Shown here one piece after another: positions 18,782 through 51,325 of a stretch of 64,000 bases of DNA; the stretch's first letter is position 1; the number at the start of each line of letters is the position of its first letter. Below the pieces are notes generated by a model. The model saw nothing but the letters and a program-made list of their open reading frames with translations, made no database searches and was not told where the DNA came from. The stretch covers positions 620,001-684,000 of the forward strand of contig NZ_MSPW01000001.1 in assembly GCF_001955655.1 (NCBI RefSeq). The letters run 5' to 3'. This stretch comes from Viridibacillus arenosi. Lineage in GTDB: Bacteria; Bacillota; Bacilli; Bacillales_A; Planococcaceae. The translations under genes and the position numbers were made by a program.

Positions 18782-20131
18782 TTACAACTTCATTGCAGCT
18801 TCGATGAACTTATCACCACGCACCTCGAAAGTCGGGTATTGATCCCAGCTTGCGCATGCAGGAGATAATAAGATGACATCTTCTTCATTTGATAAATCTG
18901 CTGCTTGTTTAACACCTGATTCCATATCATTAGCATATGCTATCTTTTCAACACCACATGATTCTGCGAATTCAGCAAATCGCTTAGCTGTTTCCCCAGC
19001 TACGACAACTGCGTGAACATTCCCCATATGTGGACGTAGTTCTTCAAATGAGTGCCCTCGATCTAAGCCACCTGCAAGTAAAACAATCGGCTGTGTAAAA
19101 GCTGCTAACGCACTGCGAGTAGCTAATGTATTAGTCGCTTTAGAATCATTGAAAATTTTACGACTTTGCCATTCTCGAACAAATTGTGTACGGTGCTTAA
19201 CACCCGTAAATGATGATAAAACATGCTCTATCTTATCTTTCGGACAATCCATAATTATTGCTGCTGCAACTGCTACTAAAACATTCTCTAAATTATGTTG
19301 TCCAGGAAGAGCTATAATGCTACGTTTGATAAATGGTTTACCTAACCAGTAAACCATTTCATCATCTGCACTTATTCCTAGATAATTAATACCATTTGTT
19401 GTGAATGGAATTTTACGTGCATGTGATTTATTTGCATAACTCACAACTACTTCTTGATCTGCGTTATAGATTAAATAATCTGATGCATCCTGGTTGCGTG
19501 TTACAGCAAATTTAGCATTACTGTATTCTTCCATCGAACCGTGATAGTCAATATGCGCTTCATATAAATTCGTCCAAATCGCAATTTTTGGCTTGAAATG
19601 TTCAGTACCCATTAATTGGAATGAAGATAATTCTGTAACGACTACATTATCTGGTGTAGCATTTTCAGTGACTGAACATGCTACTGTACCTATATTTCCA
19701 GCGATGAGAGGATTTAAACCACCTTGTTTTAAAATATGATAAAGCAAGGTGGTCGTTGTTGTTTTACCATTTGAACCCGTAATACCAATCATTGGAGCCT
19801 CGCTAATTAAGTAAGCGAGCTCTATCTCAGTCCAAATTGGAATACCTCGTTTTACAGCATCTGCTACTAGAATATTTGTATAAGGAATACCAGGGTTTTT
19901 CACAACTAATTCGAAGCCTTCATCTAGTAAATCTTCTGGATGACGGCCACAAATCACTGTAATTCCTTGTTGTAACAGACGTTGTGCATCAGTGTTCTCT
20001 TCAAATGGTTTAGCATCATTCACAGTAACGAAAGCACCCATTTTATGCAGTAATTCCGCAGCTGCGACACCACTTTTAGCTAATCCTAGTACAAGTACTT
20101 TTTTATGTTCCATCTCTTTTATGCTTTTCAT
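18782..20131 (-). CDS. murD: UDP-N-acetylmuramoyl-L-alanine--D-glutamate ligase
   Basis: Cytoplasmic ATP-dependent ligase adding D-Glu to UDP-MurNAc-L-Ala. GITGSNGKTTTT (residues ~114-125) is the ATP-binding loop, and the central domain carries the Mur ligase DYHGSMEEYSNAKF carbamoyl-lysine region. KKVLVLGLAKSGVAAAELL at the N-terminus is the Rossmann UDP-binding fold. The frame extends to 20206, but ATG 20131 has GGAGG 7 nt before it and overlaps the mraY stop (ATGA), giving the normal 449 aa. Confidence 0.96.
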   Translation of the reverse strand: MKSIKEMEHKKVLVLGLAKSGVAAAELLHKMGAFVTVNDAKPFEENTDAQRLLQQGITVICGRHPEDLLDEGFELVVKNPGIPYTNILVADAVKRGIPIWTEIELAYLISEAPMIGITGSNGKTTTTTLLYHILKQGGLNPLIAGNIGTVACSVTENATPDNVVVTELSSFQLMGTEHFKPKIAIWTNLYEAHIDYHGSMEEYSNAKFAVTRNQDASDYLIYNADQEVVVSYANKSHARKIPFTTNGINYLGISADDEMVYWLGKPFIKRSIIALPGQHNLENVLVAVAAAIIMDCPKDKIEHVLSSFTGVKHRTQFVREWQSRKIFNDSKATNTLATRSALAAFTQPIVLLAGGLDRGHSFEELRPHMGNVHAVVVAGETAKRFAEFAESCGVEKIAYANDMESGVKQAADLSNEEDVILLSPACASWDQYPTFEVRGDKFIEAAMKL

Positions 20132-21102
20132 TTCAAGACCTCCGGAACCACTGCGATCAACGCTGCAACTACTGCTGTCAACCAGAATGTTAGAACAATA
20201 CGCCATTCAGACCAGCCTGATAACTCAAAATGGTGATGTAGTGGACTCATTTTAAAAATTCGCTTACCTGTTAATTTGAAACTTGCTACTTGTAAAATAA
20301 CAGATAGTGTTTCAGCTACAAAGATAATACCAATCAGTAATAGTAATACTTCATGCCCAACTAATACTGAAAGCATTGCAAGTGCTCCACCTAAAGCAAG
20401 TGAACCAGTATCTCCCATAAACACTTTTGCTGGATTAGCATTAAATAATAAGAAACCAAGTAAAGCACCTGTTACAGCAAATGCAAATATCGCGATATCA
20501 ACTTGACCGTTTACAAGCGCTAGTACACCAAATGCAGTAAAAGCAATGGAAGCTGTACCCGACACAAGCCCATCTAACCCATCTGTTAAATTGACAGCGT
20601 TTGAGAAACCTACTAACCAAAAGATTAAGAATAAAACATAAAATCCACCTAAGTTAAAGGCGAAATCAGTAAGCGGTATCTGGATTGTATTATGGAAAAC
20701 GCCTAGACCTAATAAGAAATAGGCAGCAATCGAAATAATAATTTGTCCGATTAACTTTTGGAGGGATGTTAATCCCAAATTACGCTTGAAAATAATTTTA
20801 AGACCATCGTCTAAAAAGCCGATTAAACCAAAGCCGAATAAGACGAGAATTAATACAACAGATTGTGAAGTAAAGGCATCATTTAGATAACCTAATACTA
20901 TAGTTGTAACGATAATAGCGAATAAAAATATTACGCCACCCATCGTTGGAGTTCCCGCTTTTTTCTGATGTGATTTTGGTCCTTCTTCTCGAATACTTTG
21001 ACCAAATTTCATTCGACGTAATAACGGAATAACAGCTGGTGCTGTGATAGCCGTTAAGACGAATGAAGTGGCCAAAACAATTAAAGTTGTTGCAATTGTC
21101 AT
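20128..21102 (-). CDS. mraY: phospho-N-acetylmuramoyl-pentapeptide transferase MraY
   Basis: Membrane enzyme that makes lipid I from UDP-MurNAc-pentapeptide and undecaprenyl phosphate. FGQSIREEGPKSHQKKAGTP is the first cytoplasmic loop, NLTDGLDGLVSGT the Mg-binding Asp motif, and MSPLHHHFELSGWSE the HHH motif. Ten membrane segments. The frame opens at 21144, but ATG 21102 behind AGAAGGAG gives 324 aa, the B. subtilis length. It follows spoVD by 78 bp; murE, which is usually between them, is missing. Confidence 0.96.
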   Translation of the reverse strand: MTIATTLIVLATSFVLTAITAPAVIPLLRRMKFGQSIREEGPKSHQKKAGTPTMGGVIFLFAIIVTTIVLGYLNDAFTSQSVVLILVLFGFGLIGFLDDGLKIIFKRNLGLTSLQKLIGQIIISIAAYFLLGLGVFHNTIQIPLTDFAFNLGGFYVLFLIFWLVGFSNAVNLTDGLDGLVSGTASIAFTAFGVLALVNGQVDIAIFAFAVTGALLGFLLFNANPAKVFMGDTGSLALGGALAMLSVLVGHEVLLLLIGIIFVAETLSVILQVASFKLTGKRIFKMSPLHHHFELSGWSEWRIVLTFWLTAVVAALIAVVPEVLK

Positions 21103-21180
21103 GAAAATTCTCCTTCTAACCTTCTTTAGTACATGTACTATCATAGTAGTTTCAATTCTATTTTTAAAGACTAATACACG

Positions 21181-23094
21181 CTATTTTTCTAAATAAACGT
21201 GAATTATGCCATCTAGTCCGATTTGTGCATCTGCTTTTGGCAGTTGAGAGGCAATTTTGGAGCCATTTCCATGCCATTCTAAACGAAACGGATATTGTAA
21301 TTTTGCTATATCTTCTTTTGTCTGACCGACCAAATCAGGTACGCGCACTTTTTCAACATCCCCCCATTTATATATCTTTTCTAATTGTCCCTTTCGCTCT
21401 GTAATACCGACTTTATCATGAACATCCTCAATGATTTGCCCTACAATTGGTGCCGCAATAACACCACCAAATTGCGTAACGTTCTTTGGATTATCTATTG
21501 CAACATAAACAACGATTTCTGGATCATCTGCTGGTGCGAAGCCGATAAAGGATACAATATATTCCCCATCCTTATACCGTCCATTTTCAACTTTTTGAGC
21601 TGTTCCAGTCTTACCACCTATGCGCAGGTGATCTCTAAATGCATTTCTACCAGAACCTAAAGCAACAACCGATTCTAATGCTTCACGAACTTTTTTGGAC
21701 GTTTCGGGCTTAATGACTTGTCGTTTTTTTACAGGCTTGTAGCTTTTCAATATCTTGCCTGAATTTGAATCGATTAGATTTTTAACTATATAGGGTTGAT
21801 AGAGTGTACCACCATTAATCGCTGCTGATACTGCCTGGACTTGTTGAATTGGTGTGACAGAGATTCCTTGCCCAAAAGACGTTGTAGCATGTTCAACAGG
21901 ACCATATGCCTTTTCAGAGAACAATATCCCACTTGATTCTCCAGCCATATTCGATCCTGTTGTTTGCCCAAAGCCAAAATCACGTATATATTTTTGAAGT
22001 TTTGTTGGTCCTACTCTTCTTCCGAGCTCTATAAAACCTGGGTTACAAGAATTTTGTACGACTTCTAAAAAGGTTTCGCTTCCGTGGCCTTCACGCTTCC
22101 AACAACGTAGACGAGCACCTTCTACCATTGAGTAGCCCGGATCAAAGAAATGATCCTTATCTAAATCAACAACCTGTTCTTCTAACGCTGCACTTAATGT
22201 AATGATTTTAAATGTAGAACCTGGCTCAAAGGTCATCCACACTGGTAGGTTTCTGTTATAAATTTTGGAATCGACTTTGGAAAATGAAGGAGGAGAGAAT
22301 GTTGGATAAGATGCTAACGCTAATATTTCACCAGTTTTAGGATTCATAGCAATACCCATTGCCTGGTCTGCCTCGTATTTCACCATAGCTTGAGAAAGTT
22401 CACGTTCTACGACCTTTTGAACATCAACATCAATGGTCAATTCCATTGTTGCACCGTCTTTACCATCTTTCCAACTATCTTGGACATGAGGAAGTGCTGA
22501 ACCTTTAGCATCTGTAAATAGGCGAATTGCGGAAGCTTTTCCCATCAATAAATCATCATACTGATACTCTAATCCAGCTAATCCTTGCTGATCATAACCA
22601 GTGAAACCAATTAGCCTAGAGAGTAATTGATCATACGGATAATAACGTATGTAATCAAGCCCTGCGTAAATTCCTGGTATATTTTTTTGTTGTATTTTTT
22701 CGGCAAGTTCTTTAGATATGTTTTTAGCTTCAGGAGCAAGCTTTACTATTGACGTTTTTTGTTGCATTTTTTTTGCTAATGCTTGCTCATCTACTCCAAG
22801 TAATGTTGCCAACTCTTTTGCAGCATCTAAAGGTTTATCATTTTGCGCTGGCATAAAATACAATGTTGGGGCTAGTTTATTACCAACGATTAACTTACCA
22901 TTGCGATCTACTATATTTCCTCTTAAACTTGAAACTGGTATTTCACGGTCCCAGCTTTCTTCTGCCCTTTTTGTTAACAAATCATGTTGTATAAACTGTA
23001 CATGTACTAATTTCCCAATAAGCATGAGGAATAAAACAACAAAGACAATCCACATCCACTGCATTCTTTTTTTTGTACTTTTAGTGGCCCACAT
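21181..23094 (-). CDS. spoVD: class B penicillin-binding protein, SpoVD-type
   Basis: Transpeptidase with an N-terminal membrane anchor (~residues 15-35), dimerisation domain, transpeptidase domain with catalytic EPGSTFKI (SxxK), SCN (NSCNPGF) and KTGT (GGKTGTAQ), and one C-terminal PASTA-like repeat (VRVPDLVGQTKEDI...). It cross-links spore cortex or engulfment septum peptidoglycan with SpoVE. The identity is supported by a sigma-E-type promoter in the pbpB-spoVD gap. The start is uncertain: ATG 23094 gives 637 aa, while GTG 23109 touches the AAAGG motif. Confidence 0.9.
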   Translation of the reverse strand: MWATKSTKKRMQWMWIVFVVLFLMLIGKLVHVQFIQHDLLTKRAEESWDREIPVSSLRGNIVDRNGKLIVGNKLAPTLYFMPAQNDKPLDAAKELATLLGVDEQALAKKMQQKTSIVKLAPEAKNISKELAEKIQQKNIPGIYAGLDYIRYYPYDQLLSRLIGFTGYDQQGLAGLEYQYDDLLMGKASAIRLFTDAKGSALPHVQDSWKDGKDGATMELTIDVDVQKVVERELSQAMVKYEADQAMGIAMNPKTGEILALASYPTFSPPSFSKVDSKIYNRNLPVWMTFEPGSTFKIITLSAALEEQVVDLDKDHFFDPGYSMVEGARLRCWKREGHGSETFLEVVQNSCNPGFIELGRRVGPTKLQKYIRDFGFGQTTGSNMAGESSGILFSEKAYGPVEHATTSFGQGISVTPIQQVQAVSAAINGGTLYQPYIVKNLIDSNSGKILKSYKPVKKRQVIKPETSKKVREALESVVALGSGRNAFRDHLRIGGKTGTAQKVENGRYKDGEYIVSFIGFAPADDPEIVVYVAIDNPKNVTQFGGVIAAPIVGQIIEDVHDKVGITERKGQLEKIYKWGDVEKVRVPDLVGQTKEDIAKLQYPFRLEWHGNGSKIASQLPKADAQIGLDGIIHVYLEK

Positions 23095-23124
23095 TGTTCG
23101 ACATATCACACCTTTTTTTCTTAC

Positions 23125-44179: not shown

Positions 44180-44626
44180 TTATGCTGAACAAGAACAACT
44201 ACCGCCAGTTCCACAACCCGAACCACATGAGGAGCCAGAGTTTAAAAATGGGTTACTAACAGGTACTTTGACTGCCTCTGATACCGTTTTGCCGATTAAC
44301 AAACTGATTTCATCTAGTAAATCTTGATAATCATTTTCTGCAACTTTCAGGGCTGCTATTTTATCGTTTAAATCGAGTTTACGTTTTTGCAAACGAATCG
44401 ATTTCATAATTGTTTGGTAATCTGGATGATACTTCCCAAAACGTTGAACATCCTCATATTGCTCTTTCATTCGTTGGAATGAAGCAATTTCTTTTACAAG
44501 TTCAACATCGGAATAAACACTGTTGTAGGCATGCTGCAACATTGCTTTTTCTTTGGAGGATCGTATCATTTTACTCAGAACATCTACTTCATCAAGGATT
44601 TGTGCCCACTCCGAAGTAATCATCAT
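44180..44626 (-). CDS. ricF: RicF (YlbF), Fe-S regulator of RNA processing and development
   Basis: Subunit of the RicA-RicF-RicT (YmcA-YlbF-YaaT) complex that works with RNase Y and promotes competence, biofilm and sporulation. The helical YlbF domain fills residues 1-115. The C-terminal tail SSCGSGCGTGGSCSCSA contains four Cys, in line with the [4Fe-4S] clusters known for the complex. 148 aa. ATG 44626 behind GGGGGAATG. Own promoter at 44651-44680. Confidence 0.92.
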   Translation of the reverse strand: MMITSEWAQILDEVDVLSKMIRSSKEKAMLQHAYNSVYSDVELVKEIASFQRMKEQYEDVQRFGKYHPDYQTIMKSIRLQKRKLDLNDKIAALKVAENDYQDLLDEISLLIGKTVSEAVKVPVSNPFLNSGSSCGSGCGTGGSCSCSA

Positions 44627-45346: not shown

Positions 45347-46588
45347 TTATGTGACGCTATTTTTTTGCCCGATTTTATCAATTTGAATGAACTTAAATAC
45401 TAAAAACAAGATAATAAGCCCTATAACACCTGCTGAAATATAGCTCACATTTAGGTATTTCTCCATAACCAGTGACATAACAGGTGGCCCTGCCGCAACA
45501 CCGATAAATCTAGCAGAGCTATAAAAAGAAGTGACGGTACCTCTCTCCTCTTTTCGAATATTTTCAGTAATGATAGCATCTAACACAGGTAATATTGCTC
45601 CGATTGCAACTCCTACAATACTGGTCACTACTAACAATAGGACCAACTTTTCTGCTGTATATCCTACAAATACAACACTAATAGAAAGAACAATTAAACA
45701 GATAATCATCAGCTTCTTAATGAGCTTCATATCCCCTTTTATCTTCCTTCCAGTAATAAAAGAAGCGATACAGAGCATCAGTAAAGGAATTGCTAACACG
45801 AATCCTTTTTTTACGCCTTTAATATCGTGTATTTTTTCAAGATTTTCAGATAAGAAAAATAACGCACCAAACAAAATAAGCATAACAAATGCCCCGTTTA
45901 GAAATACGGTGAATAACCACTTTCCTTCTTGCTTAAATGTGGTTTTAACATTAGTTAAAAATTCTTTTAGTTTTACTGGTTCATCTTTTTCTTTAGGTAC
46001 TTTCACAAAGAAAAAAATTAAAACGATAGAGATTAAGCTAAAAGCAGATATAGAGAAGAATGGTAAAAACCATAAGAAAGCTGCTAACAATGAACCTAGA
46101 ATTGGACTTAATACTTTTCCGAACGTGTTTGACGTTTCAATGATCCCTAAACAAGAACTTGTTTTTTCATCATCATCTTTATATAAGTCACCTACTAGCG
46201 GTAATACTATCGGCATAGCACCTGACGCCCCTGCACCTTGTAAAATCCTCCCAATAATAATACCCATATACGGATTTTCCATTTTCCAAGACGCTATACC
46301 AGCTATTAAGCCACCGATTAATGCTAAAATTAAACTCGGTAAGATGACCATTTTCCTCCCAAAACGATCTGATAAGTAGCCTGCAACTGGAATGAGAATA
46401 ATTGCCGCTACTGAATAACTGGTGATAATCATACTTGATTGAAAAGAAGAAATACCTACATTCTTCTCCAAGATCGGTAACACTGGAATTAACATAGAAT
46501 TTCCAAGTGTCATAACTAATGGAATTGAGGCCAAACTGATTAAACACCAGAGGCTGACATTGTCTTCACGATTATCCACATTCCCCAT
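45347..46588 (-). CDS. major facilitator superfamily exporter (DHA1 type)
   Basis: 413 aa, 12 membrane segments with a central loop (~residues 200-220). LSDRFGRKMVILPSL is the MFS motif A between helices 2 and 3; GRILQGAGASGAMPIVLPLVGDL is helix 4/5 motif B/C of drug:H+ antiporters, pointing to export. Similar in type to YmfD/TetA-like carriers; substrate unknown. ATG 46588 behind GAGGTG. No regulator gene lies beside it. Confidence 0.88.
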   Translation of the reverse strand: MGNVDNREDNVSLWCLISLASIPLVMTLGNSMLIPVLPILEKNVGISSFQSSMIITSYSVAAIILIPVAGYLSDRFGRKMVILPSLILALIGGLIAGIASWKMENPYMGIIIGRILQGAGASGAMPIVLPLVGDLYKDDDEKTSSCLGIIETSNTFGKVLSPILGSLLAAFLWFLPFFSISAFSLISIVLIFFFVKVPKEKDEPVKLKEFLTNVKTTFKQEGKWLFTVFLNGAFVMLILFGALFFLSENLEKIHDIKGVKKGFVLAIPLLMLCIASFITGRKIKGDMKLIKKLMIICLIVLSISVVFVGYTAEKLVLLLVVTSIVGVAIGAILPVLDAIITENIRKEERGTVTSFYSSARFIGVAAGPPVMSLVMEKYLNVSYISAGVIGLIILFLVFKFIQIDKIGQKNSVT

Positions 46589-46718: not shown

Positions 46719-47345
46719 TTAAAAAATTGAATGGTAAGCTTGAATACCAAAATAAATACCGAATCCAATCATCGATAGAGATGAAATAATAGAAACGATT
46801 TTCAAAAAAGAGGACGATAAAATTTTTCTTGAACCACCTGAAATAGTGGCCATTATTAAATCGACTAAAGAAATTCCTAGTAATATAAATACACTATAGA
46901 TAATTATTTCCATCCCTGATAATGTTCCCGCTCCTCCGACAAGGACCGATCCATATATACCTAACCAAAAAAGGATTGTTAATGGATTTAGCAATGCCAT
47001 TAAAAAACCTGATAATAATGAATGTCTTAATCGAACTACTTTCCCAAATTTTGAATCCACCTCAATAGTATGTAATGTAAGAAGATTCTCAATCCCTGTG
47101 TACATAAGTACGAAAAAGCCGAATGACCAAAGTAGCGTTTTTATAAAAGGTATTTCTATAAAGTGTCCAATGCCAAAGTACACCATGACCATATATAAAA
47201 TATCGGTGACGACTGCACCAAGCCCGAAAAACCAAGCATGGAAAAATCCATTTTTAATACCTGTATTTAATAAAGTTGCTTTTACAGGGCCAATTGGTGT
47301 AGCTAAAGATACCCCTAAAAAGAAGTAGGGAACTATGGAATTCAT
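46719..47345 (-). CDS. LysE/RhtB-family amino acid exporter
   Basis: 208 aa, six membrane segments. SLATPIGPVKATLLNTGIKNG is the LysE-family N-terminal signature (P-x-GP), FLMALLNPLTILFWLGIYG the NP motif of helix 4. These carriers export lysine, arginine, homoserine/threonine or related amino acids. ATG 47345 follows CGGAGGGG. Its neighbours murE and aspartokinase use or feed the aspartate/DAP/lysine pathway, so a lysine- or DAP-type substrate is conceivable but unproved. Confidence 0.88.
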   Translation of the reverse strand: MNSIVPYFFLGVSLATPIGPVKATLLNTGIKNGFFHAWFFGLGAVVTDILYMVMVYFGIGHFIEIPFIKTLLWSFGFFVLMYTGIENLLTLHTIEVDSKFGKVVRLRHSLLSGFLMALLNPLTILFWLGIYGSVLVGGAGTLSGMEIIIYSVFILLGISLVDLIMATISGGSRKILSSSFLKIVSIISSLSMIGFGIYFGIQAYHSIF

Positions 47346-47359
47346 GAAATACCCCTCCG

Positions 47360-47388
47360 ATATAATAGTGTCTTTGCATCATATTCAA
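47360..47388 (-). promoter_or_regulatory. candidate sigma-A promoter of the LysE-type gene
   Basis: TTGAAT (47383-47388) and TTATAT (47360-47365) with 17-bp spacing, minus strand. The -10 lies only ~15 nt before the ATG, so the leader would be very short. Confidence 0.4.
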
Positions 47389-47858
47389 GGAGCATTACTT
47401 GTACGACTATTTTAAAAAAAGAAAATTCTAAGAATACTTAAAACTAGGACTTATTATAATTATTAAAGGATTTTTTTCCTCACCATTAATAAATCATTTT
47501 CCAAATTACTTATTAGTCAATAGAAAAAACGAAGGATGTAAATATTCATCCTTCGTTTTGATAGAATCATTGTGATTTTCCTATAAATAATTTCAGGTCC
47601 CTCTAATTTAGGCAAATAATGTGAAATAAATTTATAAGAGAAACCGAATACGTCTGATTTCTAATGTTATTCAATTGAAAATTTGGGGTGTTCTATATAA
47701 TAAGAACCTTACTAATATTTTATCAAGAAGTTTTTCTAAATATGAGTTGCAAACTACTTTACGATATTTTAACGAGTACCTCCATCAAAATAGTTGTACT
47801 TTCGTACTCGAATCTTCAATTAAAAAATAAATTGGAAAATATTTCATTTGCAACTGGC
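47389..47858. other. intergenic region LysE-type gene / murE
   Basis: 470 bp without a convincing gene. It holds a terminator at 47526-47559, 300 nt beyond the murE stop. A 66-codon plus-strand frame starting at a GTG (47688) has no ribosome-binding site and runs into murE antisense, so it is not called. Confidence 0.55.
47526..47559. terminator. terminator downstream of murE
   Basis: AAAACGAAGGATG / CATCCTTCGTTTT, a perfect 13-bp stem with an 8-nt loop and weak T-runs in both directions. Confidence 0.7.
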
Positions 47859-49331
47859 TCATTTTTCGTCATTAAGTCTTGTTTTTAATAGTTTTATATA
47901 TTCTTTAGCAATTTCATAATCTGAAAATGGGACGACTTCATTACCAATTATTTGAGTCGTTTCATGCCCCTTTCCCGCAATTAAAACAGTATCACCCGGA
48001 ATAGCCTCAGCTATTGCACTTTCAATCGCTTGTTTTCGATTAATTTTAATTGCATATGGAGTCAGATCTATGCCCTGTGCAATTTGGGCAATAATCATAT
48101 CTGCTTGTTCTCTACGAGGATTGTCACTTGTTAACCATATTTTATGAGCGTAGCTATCCGCCACTTTCCCCATCTCACGACGTTTTCCATGATCCCGATC
48201 TCCCCCACAACCAAAAACAACTATTAATTTCTTTTTCGATACTAATTTTAGAGATTGTAAAACAGCTACAAGAGCACTTGGTGTATGAGCGTAATCTATG
48301 ACAATTCGTATACCGAGATCGTTTTCTACTTCTTGTTGTCTTCCTGAAGGCAATTTGAGATAAGGAATGCTTGGCGCAATGATTTGGAGAGGGTATCCAA
48401 GTTGCTGTACAGTTGCTACTGCCGCTAATACATTTTGTTGGTGGTGCTCTCCTACAAATGGCATCGTTAGTTCAACTGGATTTTCCAAATACTGCACAAG
48501 TAAAACTGTGGAAGTACCTTCAATCTCTTTATGAATAACACTAATATCCGCTGATCGATGTCGACCAAAAGTAAAGGATCTTACATGATGCTGTTTCATA
48601 TTTAAACAAAATGGATCGTCAGCGTTAACGATTATTTTATTTGCTAAAGTGGCTAATTTTCTCTTGGCTAATTCATACTTCTCCTTACTGCCATGTTCAT
48701 CATAATGGTCTCTACTCATATTTAAATATACTCCGTAGTTAAATGGGCAATGATCTAATCGATGTTGCGACAATCCTAAAGAAGATGCTTCTATAATAAT
48801 ATACTTCACGCCCAATTCTACGCATTGCGCAAAAATCGGGTACAAATAAGTTGGAGGTGGTGTGGTCATAGAGGAAGTATTCTGATTCTGACGCTCACCA
48901 TTTATCCATAATCCTAATGTGCCAAGTACAGCTACTTTAGCTCCTAGCTTTTGTAATATTTGCCCAATGAAATGTGTTACAGTTGTCTTGCCATTTGTTC
49001 CGGTCACCCCAATGATAGTCAATAACTCAATTTTATCCCCTACAATAGCTTTACATGCATAGGATAAAAATGTAGAACAATCTGGTACCCAAACATGCGG
49101 CACTTCTAAATGTTCAATTGGCTGGTCTTGATCATATACAATGGCTACTGCTCCTTTTGCCACTGCTTCGGAAACAAAATTCCAACCATTATGCAGTTTT
49201 CCTTTCCTTGCAACGAAAATATTACCTGGCTGGATTTGTTCTGCAACATCAGTTATTCCACTTATTTCTTCACGTATCGAGCCGCCCTGTACTTCACAAG
49301 GCCAATCCTTGATAAGCTCTGCTAAGATCAA
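47859..49331 (-). CDS. murE: UDP-N-acetylmuramyl-tripeptide synthetase (MurE)
   Basis: Adds the third amino acid (meso-DAP or L-Lys) to UDP-MurNAc-L-Ala-D-Glu. SMTTPPPTYL binds the UDP-sugar peptide, GVTGTNGKTTVTHF is the ATP loop (~109-122), MSRDHYDEHGSKEKYELAK holds the carbamoylated Lys, and SDNPRREQ carries DNPR, the motif tied to meso-DAP (Lys-type enzymes differ at Asn/Arg). 490 aa; TTG start 49331, 7 nt after AGGAGG. Located outside the dcw cluster, divergent from an aspartokinase. It may be the sole murE or a second, e.g. sporulation, enzyme. Confidence 0.88.
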   Translation of the reverse strand: MILAELIKDWPCEVQGGSIREEISGITDVAEQIQPGNIFVARKGKLHNGWNFVSEAVAKGAVAIVYDQDQPIEHLEVPHVWVPDCSTFLSYACKAIVGDKIELLTIIGVTGTNGKTTVTHFIGQILQKLGAKVAVLGTLGLWINGERQNQNTSSMTTPPPTYLYPIFAQCVELGVKYIIIEASSLGLSQHRLDHCPFNYGVYLNMSRDHYDEHGSKEKYELAKRKLATLANKIIVNADDPFCLNMKQHHVRSFTFGRHRSADISVIHKEIEGTSTVLLVQYLENPVELTMPFVGEHHQQNVLAAVATVQQLGYPLQIIAPSIPYLKLPSGRQQEVENDLGIRIVIDYAHTPSALVAVLQSLKLVSKKKLIVVFGCGGDRDHGKRREMGKVADSYAHKIWLTSDNPRREQADMIIAQIAQGIDLTPYAIKINRKQAIESAIAEAIPGDTVLIAGKGHETTQIIGNEVVPFSDYEIAKEYIKLLKTRLNDEK

Positions 49332-49394
49332 CTGCTTTCCTCCTGCACGTTTTTAACATCATCGAATACATTATTACAATCCGCTATTCACTTG

Positions 49395-49403
49395 TATCGT
49401 ATG
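49395..49403 (-). promoter_or_regulatory. sporulation-type -10 box before murE (weak)
   Basis: The minus strand reads CATACGATA, a full match to the sigma-K -10 CATAnnnTA and 7/8 of sigma-E CATACAAT. No AC (sigma-K) or kmATATT (sigma-E) -35 stands at the proper distance; TCATTTT lies 12 bp upstream, two bases too close. Confidence 0.25.
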
Positions 49404-49448
49404 AAGAGAGTGCACAAAATGACACGAAGAAAGATGGGAGTATTCACT

Positions 49449-50219
49449 ATGATTATTCAAAAGTTTGGTGGAATCGCAATGCAATCCGAAGCTTCGCGTA
49501 AACATTGCATCCTTCATATACGTAAGGCTATTCATAAATTTGAAAAGGCAGTTATTGTTGTTTCAGCTATGGGCCGCGGTGGAGATGCATATGCCACTGA
49601 TACCTTGTTAACCTTAACAAGCGCTTTTAAAAATGATTCTAAATCCAAAGACCTCGTTGCAGCATGTGGAGAAATGATTGCCGCAGCTGTCATTTCAGCT
49701 GAATTAGAACAAAGTGGTATCAATAATACATTGTTATATGGTCAAGGCATTGGCATTGAGACATCTGATAACTTCGGTGACGCAGAGATCCACGCTGTTC
49801 ACACAACAGCTATAGAAAAAGCATTAAGTGAGACTTCTTGCGTCATCATCCCTGGTTTTCAAGGTACCACTGCTGAGGGAGATATTACTACGTTAGGACG
49901 TGGCGGTAGTGATTTAACCGCAGCGCTACTTGGGGCTGCCTTGAAGGCACAATTTATTGAATACTATAAAGACGTCCCTGGAGTTATGACTTACAATCCT
50001 AAAATTAATGCTAACGCAGAATTAATTGCGAAATTAACGTATCCGGAATTCCACGAGTTACTGAATGATAGCCATCCCATAGTGCAAAAAAAAGCAGCGG
50101 AGACGGCTGAAAAACACCATCTCACACTGCATATTCGAAATACTTTTTCTATGGACCAAGGAACACTAATCATACCTGCTATTCATCATGGCTCATCTGA
50201 TATACTATCTATACTTTGA
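49449..50219 (+). CDS. aspartate kinase catalytic domain protein without ACT domains
   Basis: Amino-acid kinase fold, 256 aa. IIQKFGGIAMQSEAS (KFGG motif), AVIVVSAMGRGGD, GRGGSDLTAALLGAAL and YYKDVPGVMTYNPKI are aspartokinase signatures (phosphorylation of L-aspartate, first step to DAP, dipicolinate, lysine, Met and Thr). It ends where the ACT feedback domains of ~400-aa enzymes such as DapG would begin, so no allosteric control is expected. ATG 49449, 8 nt after GGGAG; an earlier ATG in frame has no site. Its 3' end overlaps ylbC by 34 bp. Confidence 0.85.
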   Translation: MIIQKFGGIAMQSEASRKHCILHIRKAIHKFEKAVIVVSAMGRGGDAYATDTLLTLTSAFKNDSKSKDLVAACGEMIAAAVISAELEQSGINNTLLYGQGIGIETSDNFGDAEIHAVHTTAIEKALSETSCVIIPGFQGTTAEGDITTLGRGGSDLTAALLGAALKAQFIEYYKDVPGVMTYNPKINANAELIAKLTYPEFHELLNDSHPIVQKKAAETAEKHHLTLHIRNTFSMDQGTLIIPAIHHGSSDILSIL

Positions 50220-51256
50220 ATAAACACCTGTGAAAAGTGTTTACCGAAAGCACCTGAGCCGAGCTGATTATAATCTTCATTTAATAATGTGTCTCGGTGT
50301 TTCTCTGAATTAAGTAATCCATTAATTGCTTCAGGAGCATCTAAGTAATCCTCCGCAATATTTTCTGCTGCCATATCAAAATTAACAACTGCATTTTTTA
50401 ATCGCTCTTTTAAAGTATCCGGCTGAATGCCCTCTTTTGAAAAATTACCAAGCGCTAAACTTGCAGCATGACTTTGAGCAATACTGTTTAAATCAATTGC
50501 TGCGTTTAAAGCTTGTAAACCTTTTTGAGTACGATAAACGTTCGTCAAATCAAAAAGTTGTCGCTGATTCGCTAAATCTATTTCAACTTGTAAATACGAT
50601 GAAGGTACGTTTGGTGTAATCATATCGCCGACATATGTCATATCATAAGGCTGCTGTTTCACAAGCGTTTCTCCGTCTATAAAGCGTACTGCCTGTAAGG
50701 TTCGATCTGTCGCATCAAAATACATTTGTGCATATAAACCATCATACATCGTTAAAATACGTGTCTTCATATCTTCTTCATCTAAAATAAAAGTGTAAAT
50801 ATTTTCATCGATTTGCACATTGACTTCCGCATCAATAATAGTAGATCGATATATATCATCTAAAGACTGACCTATCTTAAAAGGATTCGCTGCACCATTA
50901 ACACCTGCAATATACACTTGTGTTACTTTACGTCCCTCCACACCAACCATTAAATAATCATCATAACCCTCATCGTATACCCACCATTCATAGCCGTAAG
51001 CAGAAGGTTCTACTCGGTTAGGCTTGCCTTTTAATTTTTCTAAAGCATTAGTAGACTTTCCTACTAATATAGATAAGCCATCTTTTGGTCTAGGTATTGC
51101 CTTATCATTCACATTTGGAACATCTTGATTAGGTATTACTTTCCCTTGTGAATTTGGAGCTGTTAATAGTTCATTTTCCTTTACGGACTGATTTGTATAG
51201 AAGAAAACAACTAATATAGCTGCTAATATAATTAATATTCGAAATAACGCTTTCAC
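50186..51256 (-). CDS. ylbC: CAP/SCP-domain extracytoplasmic protein YlbC
   Basis: 356 aa. Membrane anchor at residues ~3-20, a CAP-associated N-terminal domain (~60-200; VGKSTNALEKLKGKPNRVEP, FILDEEDMKTRIL), then a CAP/SCP domain (~225-350; YRTQKGLQALNAAIDLNSIAQSHAA and NFDMAAENIAEDY, NSEKHRDTLLNEDYNQLGSG). Function unknown, possibly spore- or wall-related. GTG 51256 behind GGGGAGAGG is preferred over TTG 51271. In B. subtilis ylbC lies between ylbB and ylbD, which are missing here. Confidence 0.88.
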   Translation of the reverse strand: MKALFRILIILAAILVVFFYTNQSVKENELLTAPNSQGKVIPNQDVPNVNDKAIPRPKDGLSILVGKSTNALEKLKGKPNRVEPSAYGYEWWVYDEGYDDYLMVGVEGRKVTQVYIAGVNGAANPFKIGQSLDDIYRSTIIDAEVNVQIDENIYTFILDEEDMKTRILTMYDGLYAQMYFDATDRTLQAVRFIDGETLVKQQPYDMTYVGDMITPNVPSSYLQVEIDLANQRQLFDLTNVYRTQKGLQALNAAIDLNSIAQSHAASLALGNFSKEGIQPDTLKERLKNAVVNFDMAAENIAEDYLDAPEAINGLLNSEKHRDTLLNEDYNQLGSGAFGKHFSQVFIQSIDSISDEP

Positions 51257-51325
51257 ATGGCCTCTCCCCAATTTGTTTAGTTATTATATTATACCAATTG
51301 CCGTGATGTATTCACAATGTTGTCA

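Follow-up and report, generated by a model that had tools for sequence, protein, structure and literature searches.

A 64-kb stretch of the Viridibacillus arenosi genome (G000; contig NZ_MSPW01000001.1, positions 620,001 to 684,000), referred to here as the window, carries a murE gene of the meso-diaminopimelate (meso-DAP) type, which is divergent from a shortened aspartokinase gene. The same genome encodes a lysine-type MurE. Members of the family Caryophanaceae appear to build a growing wall with lysine and a spore wall with diaminopimelate. The two ligases for position 3 of the peptide very probably serve these two walls: the enzyme with a DDPR motif would supply the vegetative wall, and the window MurE would provide meso-DAP precursors for the cortex in the mother cell, with the divergent kinase most likely helping to feed the synthesis of DAP and dipicolinate (DPA).

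Two MurE ligases in one genome

The murE gene of a preliminary description of the window was reproduced in its coordinates, strand and DNPR motif:

47859-49331, minus strand: murE, meso-DAP type; 490 amino acids, TTG start; TIGR01085 and NF001126 above cut-off
49339-49343, minus strand: murE ribosome-binding site GGAGG, 7 bases 5' of the TTG, read from the sequence

The product scores 441.9 bits with TIGR01085 (cut-off 257.3) and 440.7 bits with NF001126 (cut-off 373). It contains the domains PF08245 (138 bits) and PF02875 (105 bits), and the N-terminal PF01225 reaches 20.4, slightly below its cut-off of 21. The protein harbors the motifs CGGDRD, DNPR (D403-N404-P405-R406) and GKGHE as well as the catalytic P-loop TGTNGKT. 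An alignment of the binding pocket, which had been proposed earlier, showed that the DAP-pocket residues are retained: R379, D403, N404, R406, G453 and E457 are invariant among 13 aligned orthologues, whereas P405 is not. The pocket Arg and Glu presumably correspond to R389 and E468 of E. coli MurE. In the enzymes of E. coli and M. tuberculosis the Asn and Arg of DNPR contact the distal carboxylate of meso-DAP (PMC3829189). The pattern CGGxRD...DN[PASC]R...GKG[HN]E, with pocket Arg and Glu kept, is found in 17 out of 17 window-type sequences sampled, and the gene is under purifying selection. The murE of G039 appeared broken in the search, but this reading was dropped because an intact 480-aa frame is present.

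With its Mur ligase domains, DNPR motif, pocket Arg and Glu and P-loop, the window MurE resembles the meso-DAP-adding enzymes (EC 6.3.2.13) of E. coli (1e8c), M. tuberculosis (2wtz) and the division and cell wall (dcw) clusters of Bacillaceae. Unlike these, it is encoded outside dcw, in the order ylbC-murE-ylbF, is confined to the sporulators of its family, where it has a conserved promoter of its own, and is the second MurE next to a lysine-type one in the genome.

Family and protein searches identified three MurE-like proteins in G000. The second murE, a search for which had been suggested from the window, is located at G000:C11:769943-771418 (L001), adjoining an M42-type peptidase gene, so that the window gene is not the only murE of this genome. 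Its product is of the lysine type, with the motifs TGGNRD, DDPR and GKGHE; DDPR is also carried by the aligned lysine ligase of T. maritima (4bub). The window MurE shares the common fold of lysine-type enzymes (4bub with DDPR, S. aureus 4c12 with DNPA), but in it DNPR and CGGDRD replace DDPR and TGG[NG]RD. Orthologues of L001 with 54-98% identity occur in 17 of the 19 genera of the family, in sporulators and non-sporulators alike, and DDPR is present in all 21 that were sampled from both. The MurE tree separates one lysine-type group (100% support) from one window-type group (98% of bootstrap trees), the branches of the latter being much longer. The lysine-type enzyme is kept in the sampled non-sporulators, which are without the window type.

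Other MurE homologues were also seen. The third MurE-like protein of the window genome (G000:C1:86719-88026; L002:946-2415, L016:9121-10590) has DDLN in place of DNPR or DDPR, adjoins a peptide ABC transporter and has relatives with 47-52% identity in the genera g2 and g5. These two genera also harbor a very divergent homologue of 512-542 aa, in which RGDRG, KDVV and AGCQGMDYG replace the pocket motifs and which is a candidate for adding a different third residue, e.g. ornithine:

L254:1023-2567, L256:1415-2974, L258, L260, L261, L262: divergent MurE homologues of g2 and g5

Co-occurrence and co-loss with sporulation

The distribution of the window-type murE was compared with that of the sporulation marker SpoIVA (TIGR02836) in 151 genomes of the family; searches at the level of the order gave matches from the same family only. 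SpoIVA and window-type MurE agree in 149 of the 151 genomes (112 with both, 37 with neither, 1 + 1 discordant). Discordant genome G020 contains SpoIVA, and a diverged murE-kinase pair was found at the same locus (L084), while G097 owes its SpoIVA match to a fragment close to position 1 of a contig. As related genomes are not independent, losses were counted on a tree built from six genes of the neighbourhood. Sporulation was lost independently five times on supported branches, and murE is gone in all five cases (sign test, p = 0.0625, the minimum reachable with five pairs). The tie between this murE and sporulation that had been suggested before is thus borne out by both co-occurrence and co-loss.

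Genus g2 looks as if it has been caught while losing sporulation. Three of its species (G001, G038 and G052; L245, L246 and L247) contain spoIVA as fragments only, and just C-terminal pieces of murE and the kinase gene are left at their ylb locus, whereas spoIVA, murE and the kinase gene are all intact in the fourth species, G020. Representatives of the non-sporulating genera g6, g7, g9, g12 and g16 have neither murE nor the kinase gene between ylbC and ylbF, with at most one other small open reading frame (ORF) in this place, and in non-sporulators ylbF is adjacent or nearly adjacent to ylbC.

A conserved promoter upstream of murE

The following elements were located between the start codons of murE and the kinase gene:

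49419-49425, minus strand: -35-position block of murE, GTGTCAT (GTG[AT]C[AG]T), at a fixed distance from the -10 element
49395-49403, minus strand: -10 element of murE, CATACGATA, fitting CATAnnnTA; CATA is invariant in 38 distinct sequences
49364-49373, plus strand: element GAATACATTA, seen by eye

In the kinase-bearing genera, 43 of 43 sequences upstream of murE contain a GTG[AT]C[ACG] block with CATA at a fixed distance behind it. GTGACATT...TTCATACGATA is the most frequent version, the letters of the spacer varying. The pattern used for collecting these sequences included the invariant letters of the promoter, and the telling point is that all 43 show a single spacing. The two-block promoter is not clearly visible in G020, which was collected separately. 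A like layout, GTGTCA or GTCACA followed by CATANNNTA, is located just 5' of the murE ribosome-binding site in all 29 genomes of the kinase-less genera g10 and g14. Within the 64-kb window the two-block pattern occurs once (0.17 expected), and neither strand of five further 20-kb segments from this genome contains it.

The -10 consensus of B. subtilis is CATAnnnTA for sigma-K and CATACAnT for sigma-E, and the -35 consensus of sigma-K is mACm. CATACGATA is a complete match to the sigma-K -10 and has one mismatch to that of sigma-E. The spacing of the two blocks lies inside the published gap of 14-16 nucleotides (PMC517825). In its -10 element, its two blocks and their gap the murE promoter resembles the sigma-K and sigma-E promoters of the B. 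subtilis mother cell. It is called a putative promoter of the mother-cell type, with sigma-K more likely than sigma-E. The preliminary description had listed a lone -10 without a proper -35. This is correct in that no textbook hexamer is present, but it overlooked the conserved GTG[AT]C[AG]T block at constant spacing.

GAATACATTA is recognisable in the upstream sequences of g1, g17, g11 and g4 and, with changes, in those of g3, and is a possible promoter or operator of the kinase gene. A sigma-A-like match (TTAACA-16-TACAAT) overlaps it at chance level; a scan for sigma-A promoters yielded nothing above this level, and no Rfam element was found within 46-52 kb of the window.

The divergent ACT-less kinase

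49449-50219, plus strand: ACT-less DapG-type aspartokinase; 256 amino acids, PF00696 only

The gene divergent from murE encodes a complete AA_kinase domain (PF00696, 122 bits) and stops at the point at which the ACT region would start. The 256-aa kinase without ACT domain reported from the window was thereby confirmed, and ACT domains are missing across the whole clade of short kinases. The best NCBIfam model is PRK08210, which we take to represent the DapG class of B. subtilis (268 bits against a cut-off of 474, positions 4-248 of 405). On the tree, 18 short kinases form a single clade within DapG (100/100 support) on a long stem of 1.52 changes per column. Elsewhere in the class, the best DapG-type matches of the other families belong to long frames (about 400 aa or more), save for one truncated by the end of a contig. 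Ratios of non-synonymous to synonymous substitution rates (dN/dS) of about 0.05-0.12, from pairs with usable dS, indicate that the short kinase is under purifying selection. Nearly all members keep K5, G7, G8, S39, T50, D51, E75, R151, S154, D155 and D175, which presumably include aspartate- and phosphate-binding residues. Within the aspartokinase motifs KFGGTS, GRGGSDT, TDV and GAKVISPR, the parts KFGG, GRGGSD and DV are retained and TS is changed to [IV]A.

The kinase gene lies divergently between ylbC and murE in g1, g17, g3, g11, g5, g4 and G020, and its distribution among sporulators is explained by one change on the tree. The distance of 117 bp between the start codons of murE and the kinase gene (49332-49448) agrees with the earlier value. 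At their 3' ends, the kinase gene and ylbC overlap convergently by 34 bp (50186-50219). The operon spoVFA-spoVFB-asd-dapA (L023:6737-10158) was located by synteny, as NF006162 is below cut-off for the DpaA of this genome, and is without dapG; in the B. subtilis operon, which has the order spoVF-asd-dapG-dapA, this gene stands between asd and dapA. The short kinase is thus nested in the clade of DapG (aspartokinase I of B. subtilis), but differs from it by the missing ACT domains, its relocation and the replacement of several conserved residues. An active, feedback-free aspartokinase for DAP and DPA would be the simplest reading, with an altered or lost activity as a live alternative. The unregulated supply of aspartyl phosphate that had been proposed for it is a hypothesis.

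Proposed two-wall mechanism

In the proposed mechanism, the lysine-type MurE with DDPR would make the precursor of the vegetative wall. Late in sporulation, the mother cell would transcribe the window murE from its sigma-K/E-type promoter, and the enzyme would compete for UDP-N-acetylmuramoyl-L-Ala-D-Glu and add meso-DAP. Lipid II for the cortex would then contain DAP and the vegetative wall lysine, and with meso-DAP installed by the window MurE the cortex would be a DAP peptidoglycan. In the mother cell, the kinase encoded divergently would most likely help to supply the branch to DAP and dipicolinate, free of feedback control as it has no ACT domain. Reaction, compartment, timing, sigma factor and kinase activity are predictions in this mechanism, and the catalytic activity of the kinase is its least certain element. 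A wrong third residue harms wall synthesis, as seen with S. aureus MurE in E. coli (PMC3829189), and a restricted expression of murE would make sense for this reason. A supply of DAP precursors for the cortex by the whole block, including its exporter gene, had been suggested before: the part concerning murE is supported by the second MurE, the pocket, the co-loss with sporulation and the promoter, whereas the part concerning the exporter was not upheld, as detailed below.

Genomic context and neighbouring genes

50186-51271, minus strand: ylbC-type CAP-domain gene, conserved left neighbour in all relatives examined
44180-44626, minus strand: ylbF, conserved right neighbour
21181-23109 (spoVD) and 20128-21144 (mraY), minus strand: dcw segment without murE, spoVD directly followed by mraY
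46719-47345, minus strand: LysE-family exporter gene; PF01810 102.4 bits, cut-off 25.6
45347-46588: major facilitator superfamily (MFS) gene, inserted along with the LysE gene
47526-47559, minus strand: hairpin resembling a terminator, located between murE and the LysE gene; its stem has 13 bp and a T-rich tail comes after it

The dcw cluster of the window has the order pbpB-spoVD-mraY-murD and murE is missing, whereas murE is found between spoVD and mraY in Halalkalibacter, Peribacillus and Heyndrickxia. This adjacency of spoVD and mraY justifies the earlier designation of the window gene as a displaced murE. In every sporulator examined, the cta-ylb cluster holds murE between ylbC and ylbF; Sporosarcina highlanderae (NZ_JAROCC010000005.1) is one such relative.

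The LysE-type exporter gene on the murE strand was found again, with its PF01810 domain, but its inclusion in the murE block was not supported. Together with the MFS gene it is present in two of three congeners (G000 and G005) and was found neither in G024 nor in any other genus that was examined; no recognisable mother-cell promoter was found upstream of it. Due to this patchy distribution and the terminator, the LysE gene is placed outside the murE unit. It is, with its MFS neighbour, a recent local insertion. In several relatives a small ORF of about 106-170 aa is located on the opposite strand between murE and ylbF (L094, L096, L097, L295 and others), and in some non-sporulators it is found beside ylbC. 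The window has the LysE and MFS genes at this site.

Alternative explanations

Several observations weigh against the two-wall mechanism or parts of it. The S. aureus MurE variant A409R indicates that specificity does not depend on the motif alone (PMC3829189). The genera g2 and g5 are without a DDPR enzyme and must therefore use another vegetative ligase, so that the scheme of lysine and DAP walls is not uniform. The -35 block of murE (GTCA in this genus) agrees only in part with the mACm of sigma-K, and as GTGWCA it is stricter than the B. subtilis consensus. The kinase gene is absent from six sporulating genera (g10, g13, g14, g15, g18 and g19), and the kinase is thus not required for a DAP cortex. 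Six residues that are invariant in 17 sampled full-length DapG proteins are replaced in short kinases (S10A, T156L, T174K, K210P, H213Q and P214K), T174K in 18 of 18 and the other five in most; part of this changed set is presumably positioned around the nucleotide. A pseudokinase or an enzyme for another substrate, which would regulate MurE or DAP synthesis or be a partner in either, is an alternative that we regard as rather unlikely but take seriously. It would account for the long stem, the invariant T174K with the five other replacements and the loss of ACT, all under purifying selection, and for a kinase gene that is invariably divergent from the window-type murE; against it, the eleven residues from K5 to D175 listed above are nearly always kept. 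It is more doubtful that the ACT-less DapG derivative has become a new sporulation-specific protein of the kinase fold, no longer a normal aspartokinase, which with a rebuilt nucleotide site would control or channel the delivery of DAP in the mother cell to the cortex ligase; its tie to the cortex MurE would follow from position and co-loss.

For murE itself, a spare copy that is induced in sporulation, has an unchanged or a relaxed specificity (for lysine, or for both residues) and is needed because the vegetative ligase is off in the mother cell, is improbable; the cortex need not then differ from the wall. Linkage to sporulation and the promoter indicate the time of use and not the residue added, and swaps of the motif are insufficient to set specificity (PMC3829189), but DN[PASC]R, CGG and GKG[HN]E in 17 of 17 window-type copies contrast with DDPR and TGG in 21 of 21 lysine-type copies, which argues that the specificities are held apart over the whole family. 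A separate DAP-adding activity is, moreover, reported to arise upon sporulation in B. sphaericus, a species of this kind. That the window gene is the sole DAP-type murE, merely relocated after a breakup of dcw and serving vegetative housekeeping unrelated to sporulation, is hardly credible. A dcw cluster without murE would fit this explanation, but there is a second, lysine-type MurE that is kept in the sampled non-sporulators without the window type, and the window type evolves fast compared with the lysine type and was lost together with sporulation. Equally remote is a single amino-acid block of MurE, kinase and LysE for feedback-free DAP or lysine synthesis with export of surplus lysine: the genes are adjacent in the window, but LysE and MFS are restricted to the two congeners among the genomes examined, a terminator separates murE from the LysE gene, and the latter is without a recognisable mother-cell promoter.

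Significance

Separate lysine- and DAP-adding activities were reportedly described in sporulating Bacillus sphaericus by Linnett and Tipper (J Bacteriol, 1974-1976). The window MurE resembles the DAP-adding enzyme of these accounts, which was distinct from the vegetative lysine-adding one; that ligase was described as an activity, whereas the window murE is a gene. In the literature searched, no paper was found that names the gene of the B. sphaericus sporulation ligase or ties a second murE to the cortex in these bacteria. Walls of Lysinibacillus contain lysine and aspartate (PMC6971209), and murE and dapG are not mentioned by Galperin et al. 2012 in their work on sporulation genes (PMC3533761).

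The genes described here are candidates for a two-wall system, in which one cell would produce two peptidoglycan chemistries per life cycle through a switch of MurE isoenzymes. Should this hold, the cortex could be altered in its third residue with the vegetative wall left untouched, and whether DAP is obligatory in the endospore cortex, a point that touches its lactam structure, lytic enzymes and germination, would become a single-gene question. The clade of short kinases offers a natural example of an aspartokinase whose regulatory domain was lost a single time and in a developmental context, and in Caryophanaceae a murE between ylbC and ylbF can be used to recognise genomes competent for sporulation.

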